Source: Caryophanales bacterium UBA3668
GTDB taxonomy: Bacteria; Bacillota_I; Bacilli_A; RFN20; CAG-826
Assembly: GCA_002373085.1 (NCBI GenBank)
Contig: DFJP01000014.1
Span: 1-15,813, forward strand
Direction of reading: 5' to 3'
Length of the DNA stretch: 15,813 bases
Shown: in pieces, positions 6,826 through 15,646 of the stretch
Position numbering within the stretch: the first letter of the stretch is position 1
How the letters are laid out: each line of letters begins with the position of its first letter
The notes under the pieces: model-generated
What the model saw: only the letters and a program-made list of their open reading frames with translations
The model's database searches: none
Told to the model about the DNA's origin: nothing
Translations under genes and position numbers: made by a program

Positions 6826-6902
6826 GCGCTATTAACTCAACTGGATAGAGTGTCAGACTTCGAATCTGGAAGTTGAGGGTTCGAGTCCTTCATAGCGCGC
6901 CA
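6826..6902 (+). tRNA. tRNA-Arg (anticodon UCG)
   Basis: A 77-base cloverleaf. The acceptor stem GCGCTAT (6826-6832) pairs with ATAGCGC (6892-6898), discriminator G, and CCA is encoded at 6900-6902. The D stem is ACTC/GAGT, the anticodon stem TCAGA/TCTGG has a loop CTTCGAA with anticodon TCG at 6860-6862, the variable loop has 5 bases, and the T arm is GAGGG-TTCGAGT-CCTTC with one G-U pair. U34 should read CGN arginine codons. Every arm folds without a mismatch apart from G-U pairs. Confidence 0.96.
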
Positions 6903-6914
6903 AATAATATAAAT

Positions 6915-6939
6915 GTGCCACCAAAGCGTGGCACTTTTT
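6915..6939 (+). terminator. Rho-independent terminator after tRNA-Arg
   Basis: A 7-bp GC-rich hairpin, GTGCCAC (6915-6921) / GTGGCAC (6928-6934), has a 6-base loop and is followed by five Ts at 6935-6939. Confidence 0.9.
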
Positions 6940-6963
6940 GTTTCCTTATTAAACAAAGACTGG

Positions 6964-6992
6964 TTGATATAAATGAGCATAAAAGTTAATAT
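6964..6992 (+). promoter_or_regulatory. Probable promoter of the LicD gene
   Basis: TTGATA at 6964-6969 and TAATAT at 6987-6992 are separated by 17 bp, downstream of the tRNA terminator. The predicted start near 7000 leaves a leader of about 40 bases, in contrast to the leaderless genes elsewhere in this window. Confidence 0.45.
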
Positions 6993-7038
6993 TTAATCGT
7001 TGAGTTAGAAATATTTTCTAATTATTAGGAGTATCTTG

Positions 7039-7836
7039 ATGAAAGAGTTTACAAACGAGGACATAAAAAGAGTTGGACTTGATATATTGGATGTTGTTCA
7101 TAAATTTTGTGTTGATCATAATTTAAAATACACTTTAGCTTATGGCACTTTATTAGGGGCAATTAGACATAAAGGATATATCCCTTGGGATGATGATATT
7201 GATATCGCTATGCCTAGAGAAGATTATGAAACATTCTTAAAAACATTTGATGTTGAAAACTATGGAGTAATGTCTTGCTGGAATAACCCTCATTATTTCT
7301 TAACTTGGGCAAAAGTCTACGACAAAAGAACGATTAAGATTGAAGATGCTTATAACCCTGATGGATTAGAAATTGGTTTTAACATTGATATTTTCCCACT
7401 CGATAGTGTTGATGATTTAGAAGCTTTTCATAAAATGAAACAGAAATATAAAAATGTTGTTAAAAAACATCATTATTCAATGTTTCCTAAATTTAAAGGT
7501 AAGTCACCAGTTAACCTTGTAAAAAACATCATTATTGGCTATCTCAATAAAAGAAGTAATAAATACGCGCGAATTATTGAAGGAGCAACTTTAAAACGCT
7601 TTAAAGGTAAAGAAAGCAATCTCCTTGTTCAATTTGATGTTTATGACATTAATAGAGACTATATCTTCCACAAGGACACATTTAATAAATTAGTCCCTGT
7701 TAAATTTGAAGATAGAACTTATTTAGCAACCGAATATTATGACTTTACTTTAAAAGCAAGTTATGGAGATTATATGACTCCTCCTCCAGTGGAAAAGAGG
7801 CCATCTCTTCACTTGTTTAAGGCATATTTTAAATAA
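7039..7836 (+). CDS. LicD-family phospho-substituent transferase
   Basis: A 265-residue soluble protein of the LicD family (nucleotidyltransferase fold). The family core is clear: YGTLLGAIRHKGYIPWDDD begins at residue 35, with GT-LLG at 36-40, R43, and acidic cluster D51-D52-D53 followed by D55 that should bind metal. LicD proteins transfer phosphocholine or similar groups (in some relatives phosphoethanolamine or ribitol phosphate) to surface glycans. No choline uptake or CDP-choline genes are in the window, so the group transferred is unknown. The ATG at 7039 is chosen over a TTG at 7036 because GGAG at 7028-7031 lies seven bases before it. It precedes the glycosyltransferase genes and probably decorates the same glycan. 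Confidence 0.87.
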   Translation: MKEFTNEDIKRVGLDILDVVHKFCVDHNLKYTLAYGTLLGAIRHKGYIPWDDDIDIAMPREDYETFLKTFDVENYGVMSCWNNPHYFLTWAKVYDKRTIKIEDAYNPDGLEIGFNIDIFPLDSVDDLEAFHKMKQKYKNVVKKHHYSMFPKFKGKSPVNLVKNIIIGYLNKRSNKYARIIEGATLKRFKGKESNLLVQFDVYDINRDYIFHKDTFNKLVPVKFEDRTYLATEYYDFTLKASYGDYMTPPPVEKRPSLHLFKAYFK

Positions 7837-7843
7837 AAAAAGG

Positions 7844-7849
7844 TATAAT
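7844..7849 (+). promoter_or_regulatory. -10 box immediately upstream of a glycosyltransferase gene (leaderless)
   Basis: A perfect TATAAT at 7844-7849 is followed by six bases and then the ATG at 7856, so the first base of the start codon is exactly at the expected transcription start. There is no room for a Shine-Dalgarno site. A -35 box is not evident; the upstream region is A-rich and could act as an UP-like element. Only eight bases separate the preceding LicD stop from the box. Confidence 0.65.
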
Positions 7850-7855
7850 ATTTTC

Positions 7856-9040
7856 ATGAAGAAAATACTTTCAATAAATACAACTTCCTTCTTTTCTACA
7901 GGAACAATAATCAAAAATATTGAAAACGCCTTAGGCGATAAATATGAGTTTTATCACGCAACCGCGGATGCAGAAGGTGATAGGTCTTTTACTATTATCA
8001 AAAGTAGTGCGATGAGAGAATGGAAAAAAGTTCCTTCACAATTATTTGGAGAGGATGGATTTTTATTTAAAAAAGAAACAAAAGAACTTATTAATTGGAT
8101 TGATTCAGTTAAGCCAGATCTTATTCATATTCACAATTTGCACGGGTATTACACTAATTCGGAAATGGTGATGAATTATGCTTTTAAGCATAATATTCCC
8201 GTTATTTTTACGATGCATGATTGCTGGTCTTTCACTGGTAGATGCGCTAATTTTGACTGTGTTCACTGCGACAAATGGAAAGTCGGATGTGGTAACTGCA
8301 AACACAAAAACGTCTATCCATTAACTAGATTATTTGATAATTCTAAGAAACAGTGGCAAAAGAAAAAGAAGATGTTTGTAGGCCATAACATTACCTTTGT
8401 TACCCCGTCAAATTATTTAGCGAATCTAGCAAAAGAATCATTCCTTAAAAATGAGAATATTCACACCATTAATAATGGAATTGATATGTCTATTTTCTCA
8501 AATAAGATTACTGATATAGATTTGCCAAAAGAGATAGACACCAATAAGAGAATTTTACTTTCAATTGCCTATCCATTTACTAAAGAAAAAGGACTTGAAG
8601 ATATTAATAGACTTCAATCTATGATTGATAAAGATAAATATCAAATAGTGGTTGTTGGAGTGGAAGAAGATAAAAAAACTGTAAATGGAATTATTAGGAT
8701 TCCTCCAACAACAGATAAGAGATTCCTTGCTCTTTTATATCAAAATGCATATGCATTCCTATGCTTTACTTATCAAGATACCTATCCAACCGTGTTATTA
8801 GAAGCAATTGCATGTGGTACCCCTGCTATAACATATGACGTAGGAGGATGTACCGAAATTATTGTTGATGGAATAACTGGCTACTCGGTTAAGGTCGGAG
8901 ATATCGAAGAAGCATATAAAAAGATTGAAGAGATTGATTTAATTAATAAAGATAAATGCCAAAAAGTTGGACTAACTCATTCAATTGAAAACTTCACAAA
9001 AGAATACGAAAAATTATATAAAAAAATCCTTGGTGAATAG
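7856..9040 (+). CDS. GT-B glycosyltransferase, WcaC-like (family 4) with cysteine cluster
   Basis: A 394-residue cytoplasmic or peripheral glycosyltransferase that adds a sugar to a lipid-linked glycan. The N-terminal domain has HIHNLHGYY (91-99) and TMHDCWSFTGRC (119-130), a signature of the colanic-acid WcaC-like group, followed by a cysteine-rich stretch (C123, C130, C135, C138, C145, C148) with CxxC-x6-CxxC spacing that could hold a structural zinc. The C-terminal domain has K243/K245 in a FTKEKG loop and the nucleotide-sugar motif DTYPTVLLEAIACGTP (308-323), where the first acid of the E-x7-E pattern is D308 and the second E316, followed by YDVGGCTEI. The sugar donor is unknown. The predicted mRNA is leaderless. 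A terminator follows at 9055. Confidence 0.9.
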   Translation: MKKILSINTTSFFSTGTIIKNIENALGDKYEFYHATADAEGDRSFTIIKSSAMREWKKVPSQLFGEDGFLFKKETKELINWIDSVKPDLIHIHNLHGYYTNSEMVMNYAFKHNIPVIFTMHDCWSFTGRCANFDCVHCDKWKVGCGNCKHKNVYPLTRLFDNSKKQWQKKKKMFVGHNITFVTPSNYLANLAKESFLKNENIHTINNGIDMSIFSNKITDIDLPKEIDTNKRILLSIAYPFTKEKGLEDINRLQSMIDKDKYQIVVVGVEEDKKTVNGIIRIPPTTDKRFLALLYQNAYAFLCFTYQDTYPTVLLEAIACGTPAITYDVGGCTEIIVDGITGYSVKVGDIEEAYKKIEEIDLINKDKCQKVGLTHSIENFTKEYEKLYKKILGE

Positions 9041-9054
9041 CAATAATTAGAGGT

Positions 9055-9084
9055 AAATAACCACTTTGTGGTTATTTTCTTTTT
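9055..9084 (+). terminator. Rho-independent terminator
   Basis: A perfect 10-bp hairpin (9055-9064 with 9068-9077) has a TTT loop, and the T-rich tail runs to 9084. It splits the glycan cluster into two transcription units: 7039-9040 and 9129-13900. Confidence 0.9.
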
Positions 9085-9092
9085 ATGTCTCC

Positions 9093-9121
9093 TTGCGTCA
9101 TACGCGCTCGTGATATATAAT
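9093..9121 (+). promoter_or_regulatory. Promoter of the second glycan operon
   Basis: TTGCGT at 9093-9098 and TATAAT at 9116-9121 are separated by 17 bp. Immediately upstream of the -10 is TCGTGATA, shared with the RNA promoter at 13930-13958 at identical spacing. The small inverted repeat GCGT-CAT-ACGC at 9095-9105 lies in the -35/spacer region and could be a protein-binding site. The start of transcription should be 9128-9129, at the second in-frame ATG of the following gene. Confidence 0.62.
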
Positions 9122-9128
9122 GAACAAA

Positions 9129-10043
9129 ATGGACGAAAAATATTTAGTATCAATAATTATTCCTGTTTATAACGGCAGTGATTATGTTGCGTATGCACTT
9201 AAGTCTGCAGTTAACCAAACATATAAGAATCTTGAAATCATTGTTGTTAACGATGGCAGCAAAGATAACGGGCTTACTAAAGAAGCTGTTTTACCTTTCC
9301 TAGAAGATAAAAGAGTGAAATATATCGAAAAAGATAATGGTGGAGTTTCTTCTGTTTTAAATTATGGAATTGAACACTTCTCTGGAGACTTTTTTGTTTG
9401 GCTATCTCATGATGATGTTTTTCATCCAGAGTCAATTGAATTAAGAATTAAGAAATGGATCGCTTTAGGAGAAAACAAAAAGATTATTGTTTCCACTAAA
9501 ACGAAATATATCAACAAAGACGGCAAACTCAAATTTAGAGCAGCAGCAGGAAGCAAGGATATCAACAATATCTTTGATATTGTCTCTTCCACGATTAATG
9601 GCTGTTCACTCCTTATTCCTAAAGAAGTAATTAAAGGTCATTCGTTTATCGAAGGAATGGTCTATATGCAAGATTACTATTTATGGGCCACTTTAATTAA
9701 TGAAGGCGTGAGAATCAAACTTCTTAAAAAGAAAGTTACATACAATAGAATCCACGATAAGCAAATCACTTCTAGTAGAATGGATTTACTTGTAAGGGAT
9801 TTTGGCAAATTTGATGAAGCGTTTATTATGCCTTTATTTGATAAGAAAGAATATCGACAAATCAAAAAGATTGTTTTTGCCTTTACTAGAAGATTATCGG
9901 TTCGTCCTTTTTATAAAGGATATATCGCTAAATATAAGAGTGAATTAAAAGCACATAAAAAATGGAATATATTTGACTCCCTACACGTTATTTGTGATTC
10001 ATGTATCTGTTTTGCTGTTAAAATTCTCAGGAGAATTAAGTAA
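9129..10043 (+). CDS. GT2-family glycosyltransferase (GT-A fold)
   Basis: A 304-residue inverting glycosyltransferase. The GT-A domain shows VSIIIPVYNGSDYV (from residue 7), NQTYKNLEIIVVNDGS with D42, and the DXD-type metal motif HDD at 94-96 (WLSHDDVFHP). The C-terminal ~40 residues are basic and end in a hydrophobic stretch that may touch the membrane. The start is set at 9129 rather than the ATG at 9120 because the -10 box (9116-9121) overlaps 9120, placing the first ATG outside the transcript, and the family homology begins just after the second ATG. The stop overlaps the next gene by one base (TAATG). Confidence 0.9.
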   Translation: MDEKYLVSIIIPVYNGSDYVAYALKSAVNQTYKNLEIIVVNDGSKDNGLTKEAVLPFLEDKRVKYIEKDNGGVSSVLNYGIEHFSGDFFVWLSHDDVFHPESIELRIKKWIALGENKKIIVSTKTKYINKDGKLKFRAAAGSKDINNIFDIVSSTINGCSLLIPKEVIKGHSFIEGMVYMQDYYLWATLINEGVRIKLLKKKVTYNRIHDKQITSSRMDLLVRDFGKFDEAFIMPLFDKKEYRQIKKIVFAFTRRLSVRPFYKGYIAKYKSELKAHKKWNIFDSLHVICDSCICFAVKILRRIK

Positions 10044-11146
10044 TGAAAGTTATTGCTGTTAGTAATTATTTCATGTTTCATGATAGCGCTACTTGGGACG
10101 AACTTGTTAGTCGCAAAGATGTTGATTTTACATTCCTTGAAACTGATAGAACATTATCTGATGATCGTAAGAAAATGGGGTATGTTTTAGAATCAAGGCC
10201 ATATATCAAGCAATCTTTAGACATGAGTGATGATGAACTTAATAAAACATTTACTGGTGTAGATTTTGTTATTTATGGATCTTGCGAAGACCAAAGAGTT
10301 TCTAAAATTTGTAAAAATGTTCCTAACTTATTAGTGGCTTGTGAACACCTTTCTAAAAGGAAAAACAATTTCTTAAACTTTTTAGCAGTTATTAAATGGC
10401 TTCTCTTAGATAAGAGATACGTCAATAGTGGTGAGAAATTCTTACTCGCTAAATCATCTAAAGTTTATAAAGAATTCAAACACTTTGGTTATAAGGGACA
10501 TGGTTATCGATATGGATACTTTCCAGAACTAAAAGCTATTGATAAAGAAAGAGATCCATATTCACTTATTTGGTATGGAAGAGTGTTGTCTTGGAAAAGA
10601 GCAGATTACGCTTTATACGCTTTAAAATATCTAAAAAAAGCAGACTCAAGATATCATTTAGATATTATTGGTGAAGGTGCAAACCTTGATAATATTAAAA
10701 AACTAACAAAAAAATTGGAACTTGAAGATTCAGTTACATTCCACGGCTTTATGAATCACGATGAGATTATGGATATTCTTCCTGCTCACTCCATTCATAT
10801 GTTTACTAGTGATAATGGAGAAGGATGGGGCGTAGCCTTAAACGAAGGACTTAACTCTGGATGTATTTGCTTTGCAAATAGTAAAGCAGGTAGCACTAAT
10901 TTTTTAGTGGATGATGAATGCGGATTTGTCTTCCATAACAAGAGAACATTAAAAAAGCAACTTGATAAATATTTGTCCTTAAATGCTTCAGAAATTGAAA
11001 CTATGAGAACTAATGCTAGAAAAAGAATTAGTGAACTTTGGAATAACAAGACCGCTGCATTTAGACTTTACGAATTATTATTAAGCCTTTATAATCATAA
11101 GGAGTTTGATAAATATCAAACCGGACCTATTAGTAAGATAAAATAA
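10043..11146 (+). CDS. GT-B glycosyltransferase (family 4-like)
   Basis: A 367-residue glycosyltransferase. The N-terminal acceptor domain is divergent and I do not recognise a subgroup. The C-terminal donor domain is clear: WYGRVLSWKRADYAL (177-191, with R180 and K185 contacting the donor phosphate), LDIIGEG (206-212), VTFHGFMNHDEI (231-242), and the E-x7-E motif with E260 and E268 in GEGWGVALNEGLNSG. It is translationally linked to the preceding GT2 gene by a one-base overlap, with AGGAG at 10029-10033, and the flippase gene follows after two bases. The sugar donor is unknown. Confidence 0.87.
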   Translation: MKVIAVSNYFMFHDSATWDELVSRKDVDFTFLETDRTLSDDRKKMGYVLESRPYIKQSLDMSDDELNKTFTGVDFVIYGSCEDQRVSKICKNVPNLLVACEHLSKRKNNFLNFLAVIKWLLLDKRYVNSGEKFLLAKSSKVYKEFKHFGYKGHGYRYGYFPELKAIDKERDPYSLIWYGRVLSWKRADYALYALKYLKKADSRYHLDIIGEGANLDNIKKLTKKLELEDSVTFHGFMNHDEIMDILPAHSIHMFTSDNGEGWGVALNEGLNSGCICFANSKAGSTNFLVDDECGFVFHNKRTLKKQLDKYLSLNASEIETMRTNARKRISELWNNKTAAFRLYELLLSLYNHKEFDKYQTGPISKIK

Positions 11147-11148
11147 CT

Positions 11149-12822
11149 ATGAAAAATAAAGTTTCTATTAGTGATGAAACTAATATAAAGACCATTGAAC
11201 ACAAAAGCAAAAAGAACATTACTCTCGGGGCAATCGTTGGTTACCTCGCTATTTTCGTTAATATCGGTTCTGGTTTATTACTTACTCCATGGATCATTGA
11301 TACTGTTGGAGAAGCAAACTACGGCTTATATGGTTTAGCAACCTCTGTTATTGCCTTATTCTTACTTGATTTTGGTTTAACAACAACCACGAACACTTAC
11401 TTAGCCAAACTAAGAGCGGCAGGAGATAAGAATGGCGTTGAAAGGTTTTTAGCTGCCATCTTTAAAATTTATTTAACGATAGATGTGGTGTTTATTGCTG
11501 TTATTGTAGGATTATATTTTGCTTCACCTTATCTATATCAAAATACCTATACACAGGAACAATTAAAAACTTTACAGTATTTAATTATTATCGTTGGTGG
11601 TTATTCATTAGTGAGTTTCCCATCTACTGTCTTTACTGGTGTTATTTCTACCTATGAGAAGTTTGGAATTAACAAACTATTTGATTTAGTTCAAAAGCTT
11701 ATCTATTTAGGGCTTACAATTGCGGCTTTGAATTTTGATTGGGGCATTATTGGTATCACTATTATTAACGCGGGTAGTGGAATTGTCGCAGTTATTTCTA
11801 GATTCTTATACATGAGATTTTATCTCAATGTCCACCTCAACATTAAGTTAGGTATTACCAAAGAAGAAAGAAAATCAGTTTTTGCTTTCTCTATTTGGAG
11901 TTTGATATTTGCTATTTGCTCAAGATTAATCTTTAACGTTACCCCATCAATTCTAGGTATTGTTAGTGATTCTACTCAAGTTGCTTTATTTACAGTTGTT
12001 ATGACAATTGAAGGCTATATTTATACCTTTGGAGCGATGACCAGTAGCTTCTTCTTAGCAAAAGTTGCTCGAACCGACTCTAACGGTACAGAGGAAGAAA
12101 AAAGAGAACATCTCCAGCAACTCGCCTCTAAAATTGGTAAATTGCAATTCATTGTTATTACCTTAATCTTCTTTGGATTTGTTATTGTTGGACAAGAGTT
12201 CATGACCATTTGGATGAATGGTACAGAAAAATATCAAACCGTCTATTGGTGTATTATTGCTCTATGTGCTTATGATATTTTCTACATTCCTCAAGTTGTG
12301 TTTGATAGTGCAATGTATACACATGGACACATTAGACCACTTGCGATTAACGCGATTGTTAAGGCCACAATTAACTTAGGATTATCATTCTGGTTATCCC
12401 ATGAATATGGTGCGGTTGGTGCCTCTATCGCTATCATGGTGGCTAGATGGATTGAACTTGTTCTCAATAACTACGTTTATAAGAGATATCTCAAAATTTC
12501 TCTACTTAGATTCTTTAAATCTATCTATGTTAGAGGTGTTATTTCTTTAGCTATTTCTGTTGGCATTGGTCTGCTTATGCACTTCTATTTGCCAGTCAGC
12601 AGTGCGAAGATTAAATTTTTAGTTAATGGCTTTACATTCGTTATCATTCATATAATTTGTACATTATTCATCACATTCACTAAAGATGAACGACAATATT
12701 ATTTAGGAGTTCTTTTCGAACTTCTTCACATCAAGAGAAGAAAAGCTAAAACCTCTGAAGCAGTAGAAGAATCTTCTACTGAAGAAAGCGAAGAACAAGA
12801 TGGAACAAAAGAAGAAAATTAA
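11149..12822 (+). CDS. Wzx-type oligosaccharide flippase (MOP superfamily)
   Basis: A 557-residue integral membrane protein with about 12-14 hydrophobic helices; the N-terminal GAIVGYLAIFVNIGSGLLL helix followed by TPWIIDTVGEANYGLYGLA is the typical start of the polysaccharide-transporter (Wzx/RfbX) family. It moves lipid-linked glycan units across the cytoplasmic membrane. It is longer than many Wzx proteins because of a charged C-terminal tail of about 28 residues, first basic (RRKAK), then rich in glutamate and serine. The last 23 bases of this tail overlap the start of the next glycosyltransferase. No good Shine-Dalgarno site precedes the ATG, which starts two bases after the previous stop, so translation is probably coupled. 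Confidence 0.88.
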   Translation: MKNKVSISDETNIKTIEHKSKKNITLGAIVGYLAIFVNIGSGLLLTPWIIDTVGEANYGLYGLATSVIALFLLDFGLTTTTNTYLAKLRAAGDKNGVERFLAAIFKIYLTIDVVFIAVIVGLYFASPYLYQNTYTQEQLKTLQYLIIIVGGYSLVSFPSTVFTGVISTYEKFGINKLFDLVQKLIYLGLTIAALNFDWGIIGITIINAGSGIVAVISRFLYMRFYLNVHLNIKLGITKEERKSVFAFSIWSLIFAICSRLIFNVTPSILGIVSDSTQVALFTVVMTIEGYIYTFGAMTSSFFLAKVARTDSNGTEEEKREHLQQLASKIGKLQFIVITLIFFGFVIVGQEFMTIWMNGTEKYQTVYWCIIALCAYDIFYIPQVVFDSAMYTHGHIRPLAINAIVKATINLGLSFWLSHEYGAVGASIAIMVARWIELVLNNYVYKRYLKISLLRFFKSIYVRGVISLAISVGIGLLMHFYLPVSSAKIKFLVNGFTFVIIHIICTLFITFTKDERQYYLGVLFELLHIKRRKAKTSEAVEESSTEESEEQDGTKEEN

Positions 12823-13900
12823 GATCCTTCAAATTGTTGGAAATATGAATAACGGAGGCGTTGAAGCTTTCGTTTTGTCATATTATCACGAGCTTCATGA
12901 TTTATGTGAATTCACTTTTATGTGCTTCGATGAATCACGTCATATTCCTGAAGAAGAGATTAAAAGTTTAGGTGGTAAAATTGTCATCGTTCCACATGTT
13001 AAACATCTTCATGCATTTAATAAAGCGTTGGGTAAGCATCTTAAAGAAAACAAATATGACATCATTCATTCTCATTTAAATACCTTAAGTGTGTTCCCTT
13101 TAAGAATTGCTAAAAAGAATAAATGTCCAATTAGAATTGCACATTCTCATTCGGCATCTAATAAGAAAGAATTTAAGAGACATTTAGCGAAATCTATCCT
13201 TCGCTTATTCTCAAGAAAATATGCGAATGTCTATTACGCTTGTAGCGAAGTTGCGGGTAGATTCCAATTTGGAAATAAAGCGTTTGATAAAGGCTTAGTT
13301 GAGATTGTTATCAACGGAGTCGATTTAAATAAGTATAAATTCAACTTAGAAGCCAGAAACTCCATCAGAAAGGCCTTAAATCTTCAAGAAAACGATTATG
13401 TTGTTGGCAATGTCGGAAGATTTGTTGGCACTAAAAATCAACAATATATTTTAAAGATTGCTGCGAAATGTCCTGATAAGAAATTCTTGCTTTTAGGTAG
13501 CGGAGAACTTGAAGAAACTTATAAAAAAGAAATCGCCGATAAGCATTTAAATAACGTTATTTTAAAAGTTACTAATGAAAGCATTGTTGATTATTATTCA
13601 GCCTTTGATATGTTTGCCTTTCCTTCCCTATATGAAGGACTTGGTCTAGTTATGTTAGAAGCAGAATCAAACGGATTATATGTTGTCTGTTCTAACTTTG
13701 TTCCATCAGTAACTTTATTAACAGGATATGGAAAATATCTTCCTATTAATGATGAAGATATTGACAAATGGGTTGAAGAAATCAATAAAGCTCAGCCTAG
13801 ACAAGATCTTGTGTATAAGATTAAAGAGGCAGGATACGACATTAAAGACTCCGCAATTAGTCTTTACGAAAAATATCAAAACCTTATCAAAGAAAAATAA
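12800..13900 (+). CDS. GT-B glycosyltransferase, EpsF/CpsF-like (family 4)
   Basis: A 366-residue glycosyltransferase. KIKILQIVGNMNNGGVEAFV (residues 6-25) is the typical N-terminus of EPS glycosyltransferases of the EpsF/CpsF group. AHSHSA at 114-119, INGVDL at 171-176, GNVGRFVGTKNQ (203-214, R207 and K212 contacting the donor), LLGSGE (231-236) and the E-x7-E motif with E279 and E287 in YEGLGLVMLEAESNG follow in order. The ATG at 12800 is required because the conserved N-terminal strand begins at residue 6; it lies inside the flippase gene, a 23-bp overlap. It is the last gene of the glycan operon; an AT-rich 7-bp hairpin without a T-run follows at 13915-13931, so the operon end is not clearly marked. 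Confidence 0.92.
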   Translation: MEQKKKIKILQIVGNMNNGGVEAFVLSYYHELHDLCEFTFMCFDESRHIPEEEIKSLGGKIVIVPHVKHLHAFNKALGKHLKENKYDIIHSHLNTLSVFPLRIAKKNKCPIRIAHSHSASNKKEFKRHLAKSILRLFSRKYANVYYACSEVAGRFQFGNKAFDKGLVEIVINGVDLNKYKFNLEARNSIRKALNLQENDYVVGNVGRFVGTKNQQYILKIAAKCPDKKFLLLGSGELEETYKKEIADKHLNNVILKVTNESIVDYYSAFDMFAFPSLYEGLGLVMLEAESNGLYVVCSNFVPSVTLLTGYGKYLPINDEDIDKWVEEINKAQPRQDLVYKIKEAGYDIKDSAISLYEKYQNLIKEK

Positions 13901-13929: not shown

Positions 13930-13958
13930 TTGTACTTAAGGCATTCGTGAGATATAAT
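13930..13958 (+). promoter_or_regulatory. Promoter of the candidate non-coding RNA
   Basis: TTGTAC at 13930-13935 and a perfect TATAAT at 13953-13958 are 17 bp apart. The 14 bases ending with the -10 box (13945-13958) match those of the glycan-operon promoter (9108-9121) at 13 positions. The predicted transcription start is about 13965, and there is no gene start codon with a ribosome binding site behind it. Confidence 0.62.
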
Positions 13959-13964
13959 TTACAT

Positions 13965-14203
13965 GGTGTAAGAAGTAATTCACGCGAGTATACTTTATAA
14001 CTAGTGAGAGAATTTGGAAAAATCGCCCTTATCCAAATTCGATAATGTTCAAAGGGCATAATAAAAGCGGTCAAGTACCGCAACTAAATTAGTTTTACAC
14101 ATAGCAGTTCGGAGCATATGATCTTCTCTTTTCTCGGCTAATAGCCAAACTTCTCCACTTACTGTTTGTGTTAAAATGGAAGGGCCGGTTTCCCGGCCCT
14201 TTT
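13965..14203 (+). ncRNA. Candidate structured non-coding RNA with pseudoknot
   Basis: This otherwise gene-free stretch of about 240 bases has a promoter, a GC-rich terminator and helices that fit together. P1: 13966-13973 with 14093-14100 (8 bp, one G-U) closes the 5' domain. P2: 13979-13983 with 14004-14008, extended by 13987-13992 with 13996-14002. P3: GAATTTGG (14010-14017) with CCAAATTC (14033-14040), 8 bp. The P3 loop contains GCCCTT (14025-14030), which pairs with AAGGGC (14052-14057) to make an H-type pseudoknot with connectors of 7, 2 and 11 bases, all sterically reasonable. P4: GCGGT (14067-14071) with ACCGC (14077-14081). In the 3' domain GGCT/AGCC (14136-14146) forms a small hairpin. 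I see no signature of tmRNA (no CCA end), RNase P RNA (no GAGGAAAGTCC), SRP RNA or a T-box. A divergent 6S RNA or an unknown class is possible. Expression is inferred, not shown. Confidence 0.6.
14180..14203 (+). terminator. GC-rich terminator, possibly bidirectional
   Basis: AAGGGCCGG (14180-14188) pairs with CCGGCCCTT (14193-14201) over a 4-base loop. On the plus strand the hairpin runs into a short T-run ending at 14203, terminating the candidate RNA. On the minus strand it lies just after the stop of the PAQR gene and is followed by CCATTTT, a weak tail, so it may serve both. Confidence 0.82.
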
Positions 14204-14209
14204 ACAATT

Positions 14210-14890
14210 CTAAATGAAGAGTAATAACACACCAACAGTCTGAAATACTGTTCCCAGTAAAACAAATATGTGGAAAATGGAATGGAAAGAAAGAATTTTG
14301 TGTCCTACTCCATATAGAATTGATCCGACTGTGTAAAGAATTCCTCCTATTAATATATAAAGGAAAGAATTGTTTGGAAGATAAATAAATCCTCCGGTAA
14401 ATAAGATTAGCCAACCTAACGCTAAATAAAGGAACATGGAAATGGTTTTGACTGCCTTATTAGAAAAGTCGACAGCGTTTATAATTATTCCAACAATCGC
14501 TAAAAACCATTCAATAATAAGAATTACTAATCCAATTACATTAATAGTCATTAGATAAATGCATATAGGAGTGTAAGTGCCTGCAATCAGAAAATAGATA
14601 GTACAGTGATCAACCACTCTTTTTATTTTCTTACTCTTAGCTTTATCAGCACTTGATCCGTGATATATGCTACTAACCATATATAGTGTGATGATAGATA
14701 CACCAAACACTAATAGACCGATGAAATAATTAACACCAATGTTATGGCCTAAAAATAGGCCTAAAGATATAGCGATAACTAATATCCCAACTGGAACGCC
14801 TAAAAAGTGAGAAACACTATTAAAAAGTTCCTGCTTAATCGTATAGGAAGGGATATCAATCTTTCGTAACATCTTTTCACTAGTTGTCAT
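14210..14890 (-). CDS. PAQR / hemolysin III family membrane protein
   Basis: A 226-residue protein with seven hydrophobic helices, the usual size of bacterial hemolysin III (YqfA/YplQ-like) proteins related to adiponectin receptors. Conserved positions: E21, N24 and H28 (QELFNSVSHFLG), S73-S74-I-Y-H77, D94-H95, GTYTP (104-108), and H203-xxx-H207 before the last helix. H77 and D94 are 17 apart and H203/H207 are four apart, the same spacing as the zinc ligands and nearby aspartate of human AdipoR1 (H191, D208, H337, H341), so a zinc site in the membrane is expected. Despite the name, a haemolytic role is not established for most members; a hydrolase on membrane lipids is suspected. The ATG at 14890 has GAGG on the minus strand at 14901-14898, seven bases upstream. 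Confidence 0.93.
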   Translation of the reverse strand: MTTSEKMLRKIDIPSYTIKQELFNSVSHFLGVPVGILVIAISLGLFLGHNIGVNYFIGLLVFGVSIITLYMVSSIYHGSSADKAKSKKIKRVVDHCTIYFLIAGTYTPICIYLMTINVIGLVILIIEWFLAIVGIIINAVDFSNKAVKTISMFLYLALGWLILFTGGFIYLPNNSFLYILIGGILYTVGSILYGVGHKILSFHSIFHIFVLLGTVFQTVGVLLLFI

Positions 14891-14957
14891 ACCTTTTCCT
14901 CGGTGATTTAAATATAACCTAGGTTTCTATTTAAGTAATTGAACCGTTAAAGATTTG

Positions 14958-15046: not shown

Positions 15047-15646
15047 ATGAAAGAAGAAGAAATTAAAATTAACTTTTCTAAAAATCTATATGCGCTTAGG
15101 AAATCTAAAAATTTATCTCAAGCTCAATTAGCAGAAGCGCTTAACTATACTCATAAGGCAGTTAGCAAGTGGGAAAATAAAGAAACGATGCCTGATATTG
15201 TTACTTTAAGTTCCATTGCTGAATATTTTGATATTACTGTTGATGATTTGATTAATAGCCATGACGCGGTAAAAAAATCACAAAAGAAAAGAGATAGAAG
15301 AAGAATCACTTTATCCTCTATTGGTATTTGTTTCTTCTTAACTGCAGTTATTTATCTTGTTTTATTAGTCACTAACGTTCCTAAATCATATATATCTATT
15401 CCTTTTGCCTTTTTAACAAGTGGAATTGTCTATGTTGTTTTTGCTTCATTATGGTTTAAAAAATATCATGTCTTTATAGCGACAAGCATAATTGTTTGGT
15501 CAACCGCGATTATATTAATGTTATTTATGGATTTTGCTTATTGGTGGTTGGTGTTAATAATTGCCTTTATCACCGACTTAGCGTTTTATCCATTCTTCAG
15601 AATATTCTTCAATAACGCAAAAGAAAAATCCACTAGCACGAACTAG
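15047..15646 (+). CDS. XRE-family DNA-binding protein with four membrane helices
   Basis: A 199-residue protein with an N-terminal Cro/CI-type helix-turn-helix (residues 8-65; LSQAQLAEALNYTHKAVSKW is the recognition core at 23-42, followed by KETMPDIVTLSSIAEYFDITVDDL). After a basic linker (KKSQKKRDRRR, 76-86) come about four hydrophobic helices at roughly 87-108, 114-135, 140-161 and 165-186. This puts the DNA-binding domain on the cytoplasmic face of the membrane. Such proteins are common in gut Bacillota; their signal is usually unknown. The start at 15047 is fixed by the promoter and by the family N-terminus; an upstream GTG at 14975 in the same frame lies before the -35 box and is not in the predicted transcript. 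The last codons form part of the terminator hairpin. Confidence 0.9.
   Translation: MKEEEIKINFSKNLYALRKSKNLSQAQLAEALNYTHKAVSKWENKETMPDIVTLSSIAEYFDITVDDLINSHDAVKKSQKKRDRRRITLSSIGICFFLTAVIYLVLLVTNVPKSYISIPFAFLTSGIVYVVFASLWFKKYHVFIATSIIVWSTAIILMLFMDFAYWWLVLIIAFITDLAFYPFFRIFFNNAKEKSTSTN

Follow-up and report, generated by a model that had tools for sequence, protein, structure and literature searches.

Comparison of three homologous loci suggests that the 309-base gap downstream of the glycan operon in the window (the whole 15,813-nucleotide stretch of DNA analyzed here) harbors a structured RNA whose conserved core is a 3′ hairpin with a CU-rich loop, and not the H-type pseudoknot that a preliminary description of the same DNA had presented as its hallmark. 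We consider it quite likely that the structured RNA gene is real, and the RNA probably has its own promoter and terminator. Through the comparison, a less conspicuous hairpin replaced the striking pseudoknot as the center of the finding. To our knowledge, which draws on a limited literature search, the regulatory RNAs of uncultured gut and rumen Bacilli seem little charted, and this candidate, with its fixed loop and paired changes, gives searches of rumen metatranscriptomes something definite to look for. The features referred to below are as follows:

6826-6902, + strand: tRNA-Arg(TCG), at the left edge of the variable region, whose other end is the RNA
13930-13958, + strand: possible promoter, TTGTAC - 17 - TATAAT, from the sequence
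13965-14091, + strand: 5′ segment of the predicted transcript, for which relatives show no detectable counterpart
14010-14017/14033-14040 and 14025-14030/14052-14057, + strand: H-type pseudoknot, present in the sequence, to which relatives give no support
14067-14081, - strand: 5-bp hairpin with a T run on the - strand, terminator-like in the scan (1 found, 0.1 expected)
14092-14097/14172-14177, 14098-14101/14167-14170, 14103-14108/14161-14166 and 14111-14114/14153-14156, + strand: conserved imperfect hairpin with a homologue in G005
14122-14131, + strand: conserved unpaired loop motif TCTTCTCTTT, identical in the window, G176 and G005
14136-14146, + strand: small hairpin GGCUAAUAGCC, 3′ of the motif, two of its four pairs changed on both sides in G005
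14177-14204, + strand: terminator stem-loop with T run, after the hairpin in all three copies
14210-14890, - strand: hlyIII-type membrane protein gene (PF03006, 1.1e-32), convergent neighbor in all three copies

As previously described, the gap spans 309 bases from the last glycosyltransferase gene of the operon (PF00534; stop at 13900) to the convergent hlyIII-type gene (stop at 14210), and about 850 bases beyond it are free of genes on the same strand, the next + strand gene beginning at 15047. ARAGORN detected one tRNA and no tmRNA in the window. Homologues of the RNA occupy the same place, convergent with hlyIII, in two related genomes, G176 and G005, and all three loci share the order P-type ATPase, tRNA-Arg(TCG), variable place, RNA, hlyIII and HTH gene. 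The variable place contains the glycan operon in the window (6826-13900), three reading frames in G005 (one encoding a sugar transferase, PF02397, and one of marR type); in G176 it is devoid of protein genes. Each of the three has a terminator-like hairpin behind the tRNA, although the pattern scan does not list that of G176. The best protein match of hlyIII (71% identity) belongs to the uncultured Erysipelotrichaceae bacterium RUG14536 (genome G001, locus L001), and the matches come from rumen and gut bacteria. The RNA is absent from the G001 locus, where 33 bases with a terminator-like hairpin separate a glycosyltransferase gene from the convergent hlyIII. The interval from tRNA-Arg(TCG) to hlyIII is about 12 kb long in G001; in G172, where both lie on one contig (G172:C4:57523-60535), it is 2.3 kb. 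Across the window, L005, L091, L001 and G172, this interval looks like a gene-exchange hot spot beside a tRNA gene. In another genome, G002, a long reading frame lies on the opposite side past hlyIII (L002 1-1000); from the type of sequence, we take it to resemble an IS605-type transposase gene.

What the window, G176 and G005 have in common is the 3′ part of the RNA (14092-14204). Their three folds are alike in layout, with a lower stem, an upper stem, a loop strand with UCUUCUCUUU, a small hairpin, a return strand and the terminator. All ten letters of UCUUCUCUUU are identical in the three copies, and the motif lies in a loop in every fold. The stems of the window and G005 differ in sequence but keep their pairing: 7 of the 20 comparable stem pairs, a count that includes the small hairpin and comes from two sequences only, are changed on both sides. 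In this alignment, which MAFFT built without structure and whose pairs were taken from the window's own fold, 93.2% of 44 cells are paired, and 2 of 500 shuffles reach that value together with the paired changes. When the partners were slid by one to three columns as a control, 36.4-46.5% were paired, with 0-1 both-side changes. Pairs were counted in the window and G005 only because in the first MAFFT alignments the G176 motif is one base out of register. Compensatory changes in homologous regions, which the preliminary description had proposed to look for, occur in the 3′ hairpin; the pseudoknot has no detectable counterpart in which to seek them. A covariance model made from the window's 14092-14177 alone (R1) finds the G005 copy at 30 bits (E 2.8e-5 in 22 kb). 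R1 also hits G176 where the copy should lie, although two chance matches within the window score higher (16.4 and 13.8 bits) than this hit, which reaches 13.3 bits (E 0.47).

The terminator is indeed present at 14177-14204, with 12 pairs and a folding energy of -20.3 kcal/mol for 14172-14210. The terminator stem-loops of the three copies have energies of -20.3, -20.0 and -11.0 kcal/mol and are each followed by T on the + strand; the pattern scan lists that of G005 only on this strand, leaving the window's 14177-14204 unlisted. The TATAAT is likewise found at 13953-13958, and 17 bases upstream of it stands a weak TTGTAC (13930-13935) that matches the -35 consensus in three of six letters. It is because of this weak -35 that the promoter scan does not list 13930-13958. 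Upstream of the G176 copy, we found TTTACA-18-TATAGT in a stretch with three promoter-like sites, compared with 1.6 expected from shuffles, which makes the G176 promoter mild evidence. In general, promoter-like sites are no commoner in the window or in G176 than in shuffles. A candidate inner promoter, TTTACA-17-TATGAT (14094-14122; 1.4 expected), was rejected, since it falls within the hairpin stem and neither G176 nor G005 retains it. A short reading frame at 14118-14141 was also dismissed because, as judged by eye, the homologues do not preserve it.

The idea of an independent RNA gene is borne out by the terminator, found in three of three copies. As to a promoter, candidates precede the RNA here (the TATAAT with its weak -35) and in G176, and the promoter scan lists none before the G005 copy. 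In G176, there is nothing upstream of the RNA except tRNA-Arg with its own terminator-like hairpin, so that the RNA is probably its own gene. The G005 copy directly follows the marR-type gene, its hairpin beginning three bases past the stop codon. This arrangement and the missing promoter are what one would expect if the hairpin belonged to the 3′ untranslated region of the upstream message (marR-type in G005, the glycan operon here) as a structured element that protects the end of that message or is cut off as a 3′-derived sRNA, with no promoter of its own. We regard such an element as unlikely, given that G176 has no protein gene between the terminated tRNA-Arg and the RNA, that the upstream genes differ in all three loci, and that a TATAAT and a weak -35 precede the copy in the window.

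Since the + and - strands fold about equally well (-17.4/-18.5, -15.6/-15.4 and -19.1/-18.0 kcal/mol), the assignment of the RNA to the + strand depends on the promoter and the terminator only. The 5-bp hairpin reported previously is present at 14067-14081, where our scan reads it as terminator-like on the - strand. It could be the terminator of the hlyIII message, beyond the conserved hairpin, and if hlyIII transcription ends there, two convergent transcripts would overlap over the RNA. One might accordingly ask if the other strand is the functional one, with the hairpin in the hlyIII 3′ UTR showing a purine-rich AAAGAGAAGA. Besides the equal folding, this reading draws on the - strand terminator-like sites past the hairpin (14081-14067 in the window, L114 1183-1164 in G005) and on hlyIII being the one constant neighbor; it is nonetheless rather unlikely, as in every copy the T run of the strong terminator past the hairpin lies on the + strand, and no such - strand site is listed in G176.

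Folding energies alone discriminate less clearly. The region 13960-14204 folds at -65.4 kcal/mol, compared with -50.09 (sd 4.43) for its shuffles, none of which is as low (0 of 200; z -3.46), and the terminator supplies much of this excess. Single hairpin folds are modest, with z values of -2.28 for the window (hairpin domain 14086-14178, without the terminator), -1.38 for G176 and -1.84 for G005, and with 8, 49 and 23 of 500 shuffles as low, respectively. These modest folds, the small number of three sequences and the loss in G001 would be compatible with an idle intergenic stretch that merely has a terminator, its likeness among genomes being leftover ancestry. We consider this improbable in view of the both-side pair changes beside an unchanged loop, and because letter shuffles seldom reach the similarity of the 3′ parts (2 of 500 for the window and G176, 0 of 500 for the window and G005, 4 of 500 for G176 and G005). 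It is very unlikely that the hairpin instead acts as folded DNA, marking a site or border in a tRNA-Arg hot spot of glycan-gene exchange, with its pairing serving DNA handling and not RNA: the cargo between tRNA-Arg and the hairpin does differ (none in G176, three genes in G005, the glycan operon here) and both strands do fold equally, but a terminator follows the hairpin in all three loci, and G001 and G172 carry cargo between tRNA-Arg and hlyIII at places where the hairpin was not found; nor was an integrase-like gene noticed in the window.

In contrast to the 3′ hairpin, the 5′ part has no recognizable homologue. The pseudoknot can be drawn as described, with P3 at 14010-14017/14033-14040 and a second helix that pairs GCCCTT (14025-14030) with AAGGGC (14052-14057) through four G-C pairs. 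It had been called unlikely by chance, a claim that survives in part. Using a rough script (a simple stacking sum over maximal stems only), we found the stacking sum of the pseudoknot to be reached by 4 of 1000 shuffles of the 127-nt 5′ part (13965-14091), by 5 of 400 shuffles of the RNA without its terminator, and by 15 of 400 shuffles of the whole RNA (13965-14204); it is thus somewhat better than shuffles of the 5′ part, but less clearly so over the whole RNA. A pseudoknot in G176 was discarded, as shuffles equalled it in 645 of 1000 and 436 of 1000 cases. Neither homologue bears out the pseudoknot as the hallmark of the RNA: the similarity of the window's 5′ part to G176 lies at the shuffle median (247 of 500 shuffles as high), and G005, whose conserved hairpin starts right behind the marR-type stop codon, has no room for it. 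Nor did we find all the proposed helices to be mutually compatible. For the 8-bp closing helix, to which the preliminary description assigns no coordinates, we could write just one version, 13966-13973 with 14093-14100 (one G-U pair included), which overlaps the 5′ arm of the conserved hairpin (14092-14101, which pairs with 14167-14177). Because this helix competes with that hairpin for these bases, it could at most form in an alternative state. As for the pseudoknot, it may exist in this species, but the comparison lends it no support, and it is the least supported part of the proposed RNA.

We searched for further copies in several ways. A DNA search with the whole RNA in 224 genomes of the family gave matches at E up to 0.05 in 19 genomes, at 20 places, and among the three places read (L070-L072) only G176 was at the hlyIII place. 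The G176 copy was found through its terminator (E 3.7e-5), and the bases before the terminator show the same 3′ layout. The third copy, that of G005, was seen past hlyIII when downstream sequence was inspected at the best 30 hlyIII loci, hlyIII being matched in 158 of the 224 genomes. A whole-RNA search of 10 genomes yielded matches at E up to 1 in seven, at 11 places, and the five loci read were judged to be chance. The pattern TCTTCTCTTTYYYN{18,48}GTTRAA occurred at 24 places in 21 of the 224 genomes, compared with 25 for the reversed control, and therefore gives no signal beyond G005 and G176. R1 over the 224 genomes produced matches at E up to 1 in four, all read and judged chance; as this search, with stricter filters, missed G005, it shows absence elsewhere only weakly. 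With a further model, R2, matches in 41 relatives fell at 11 places in nine genomes, where G005 was true and the other 10 were read and rejected, and G176 was missed. Over 81 loci, R2 recovered the window along with three matches of E 1.4-4.7. In the order, represented by 279 genomes, it gave G005 and two others, which were rejected as lying inside long reading frames. Over 19 sibling loci near tRNA-Arg or hlyIII, it gave matches at E 0.24 and 2.1 only, missing the known G176 copy (L211). Of the tRNA loci scanned (16 of 17, some reaching less than 100 bases), G176 alone has the motif CTTCTCTTT downstream of the tRNA. Searching with the G176 RNA, we obtained matches at E up to 0.5 in 29 of the 41 relatives, of which three loci were read and rejected, and the best match outside G176 had an E of 1.0e-3. 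The exact patterns were not found in viral contigs, and no copy was seen in the ends searched of G172, in which tRNA-Arg and hlyIII lie 2.3 kb apart.

Overall, no further copy was recognized in the 224 genomes of the family, the 279 of the order (the two sets overlap), the 41 relatives or the sibling tRNA-Arg loci. As R1 missed G005 over the 224 genomes and R2 picked up G176 barely or not at all, these searches are weak, and more distant copies would be overlooked. The RNA is probably of narrow range, belonging to one group of gut and rumen Bacilli.

The best reading of these data, offered tentatively and by analogy, is a narrow-range, stand-alone sRNA gene with a CU-rich base-pairing seed. 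On the + strand, the transcript would begin near 13965 and end at about 14204. A pairing seed, we infer, could be expected to take the form seen here, a pyrimidine-rich loop that stays constant and unpaired while its stem drifts. Such a seed, with AAAGAGAAGA as its complement, could bind purine-rich sequence at ribosome binding sites and would lower translation, as with RsaI, LhrC and RoxS. The species-specific 5′ part, here with the pseudoknot, might act as an exchangeable cap that protects the RNA or adjusts its activity. A far bolder and highly improbable extension envisages an orphan RNA class, known from three species of one group, with a fixed CU-rich loop on a freely drifting yet paired stem, located where a tRNA-Arg hot spot of surface-glycan genes has its right-hand end, and with a 5′ part swapped between species; it would tune the adjoining glycan or membrane genes or aid exchange as a folded strand.

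Neither of two simple target tests supported a seed of this kind. AAAGAGAAGA is not enriched up to 14 bases before ATG: it occurs there 13 times in G005, two of them where the RNA locus is read in reverse, and 11 times in G176, compared with 4-21 times in 17 related genomes without a recognized copy of the RNA, a crude count because the word resembles a Shine-Dalgarno sequence. In the window, the start region of hlyIII (14880-14905, CCGAGGAAA) can form nine pairs, one of them G-U, with UUUUCUCGG of the RNA loop region at -12.6 kcal/mol, and 74 of 4506 windows are as good. It ranks second among 16 gene starts, behind the glycosyltransferase at 12800 (-14.6). The hlyIII-start pairing is not kept in G176, where 18% of windows are as good.

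The RNA is uncatalogued, a statement that applies to Rfam 15 only. The preliminary description could match the gap to none of tmRNA, RNase P, SRP, T-box or a common riboswitch, and we found that none of the 4227 Rfam families matches it at the gathering score, the only such match in the window being a tRNA. A permissive scan of the gap reached 18.7 bits at best, compared with a cut-off of 47, and permissive scans of the homologues gave 17.8 bits against 80 in one and nothing in the other; the names returned for the three copies were weak and unrelated. The suggested check against 6S (RF00013) detected no match in the window. RF00013 also remained without a match in six of six genomes of the group (G001, G002, G005, G172, G174 and G176), and since a control detected it in only 5 of 14 known genomes, a diverged 6S RNA could exist there unseen.

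Compared with known systems, the candidate is like 6S RNA in being a stand-alone RNA of about 200 nt, but G005 has a 73-nt hairpin only and no rod closed by two RNA ends. RsaI has pseudoknots, and no staphylococcal sRNA in Rfam matches the window or its homologues. The parts of PMC8383071 that treat RsaI (RsaOG) of Staphylococcus aureus depict a stand-alone RNA with an unpaired CU-rich stretch and a second domain, as proposed here, whereas the CU-rich stretch here is the loop of a long 3′ hairpin. LhrC of Listeria monocytogenes, according to the same parts, binds the ribosome binding site of a target with CU-rich motifs, as the CU-rich stretch of RsaI does (PMC8383071); LhrC has three such motifs, in contrast to the one fixed motif here, and the candidate has no Rfam match to it. 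RoxS/RsaE and FsrA are, in the sections of PMC8464778 concerned with them, short intergenic RNAs of Firmicutes with C-rich seeds, whereas the seed proposed here is U-rich with single Cs (UCUUCUCUUU) and has no C run, again with no Rfam match; RoxS is there said to need no Hfq for its ppnKB target (PMC8464778). Taken together, the relevant sections of these two sources describe CU- or C-rich unpaired stretches of RsaI, LhrC and RoxS that pair with mRNAs, mostly at ribosome binding sites (PMC8383071, PMC8464778). The RNA described here is probably new as a family and would, by this analogy, work in a known, RsaI/LhrC/RoxS-like way.
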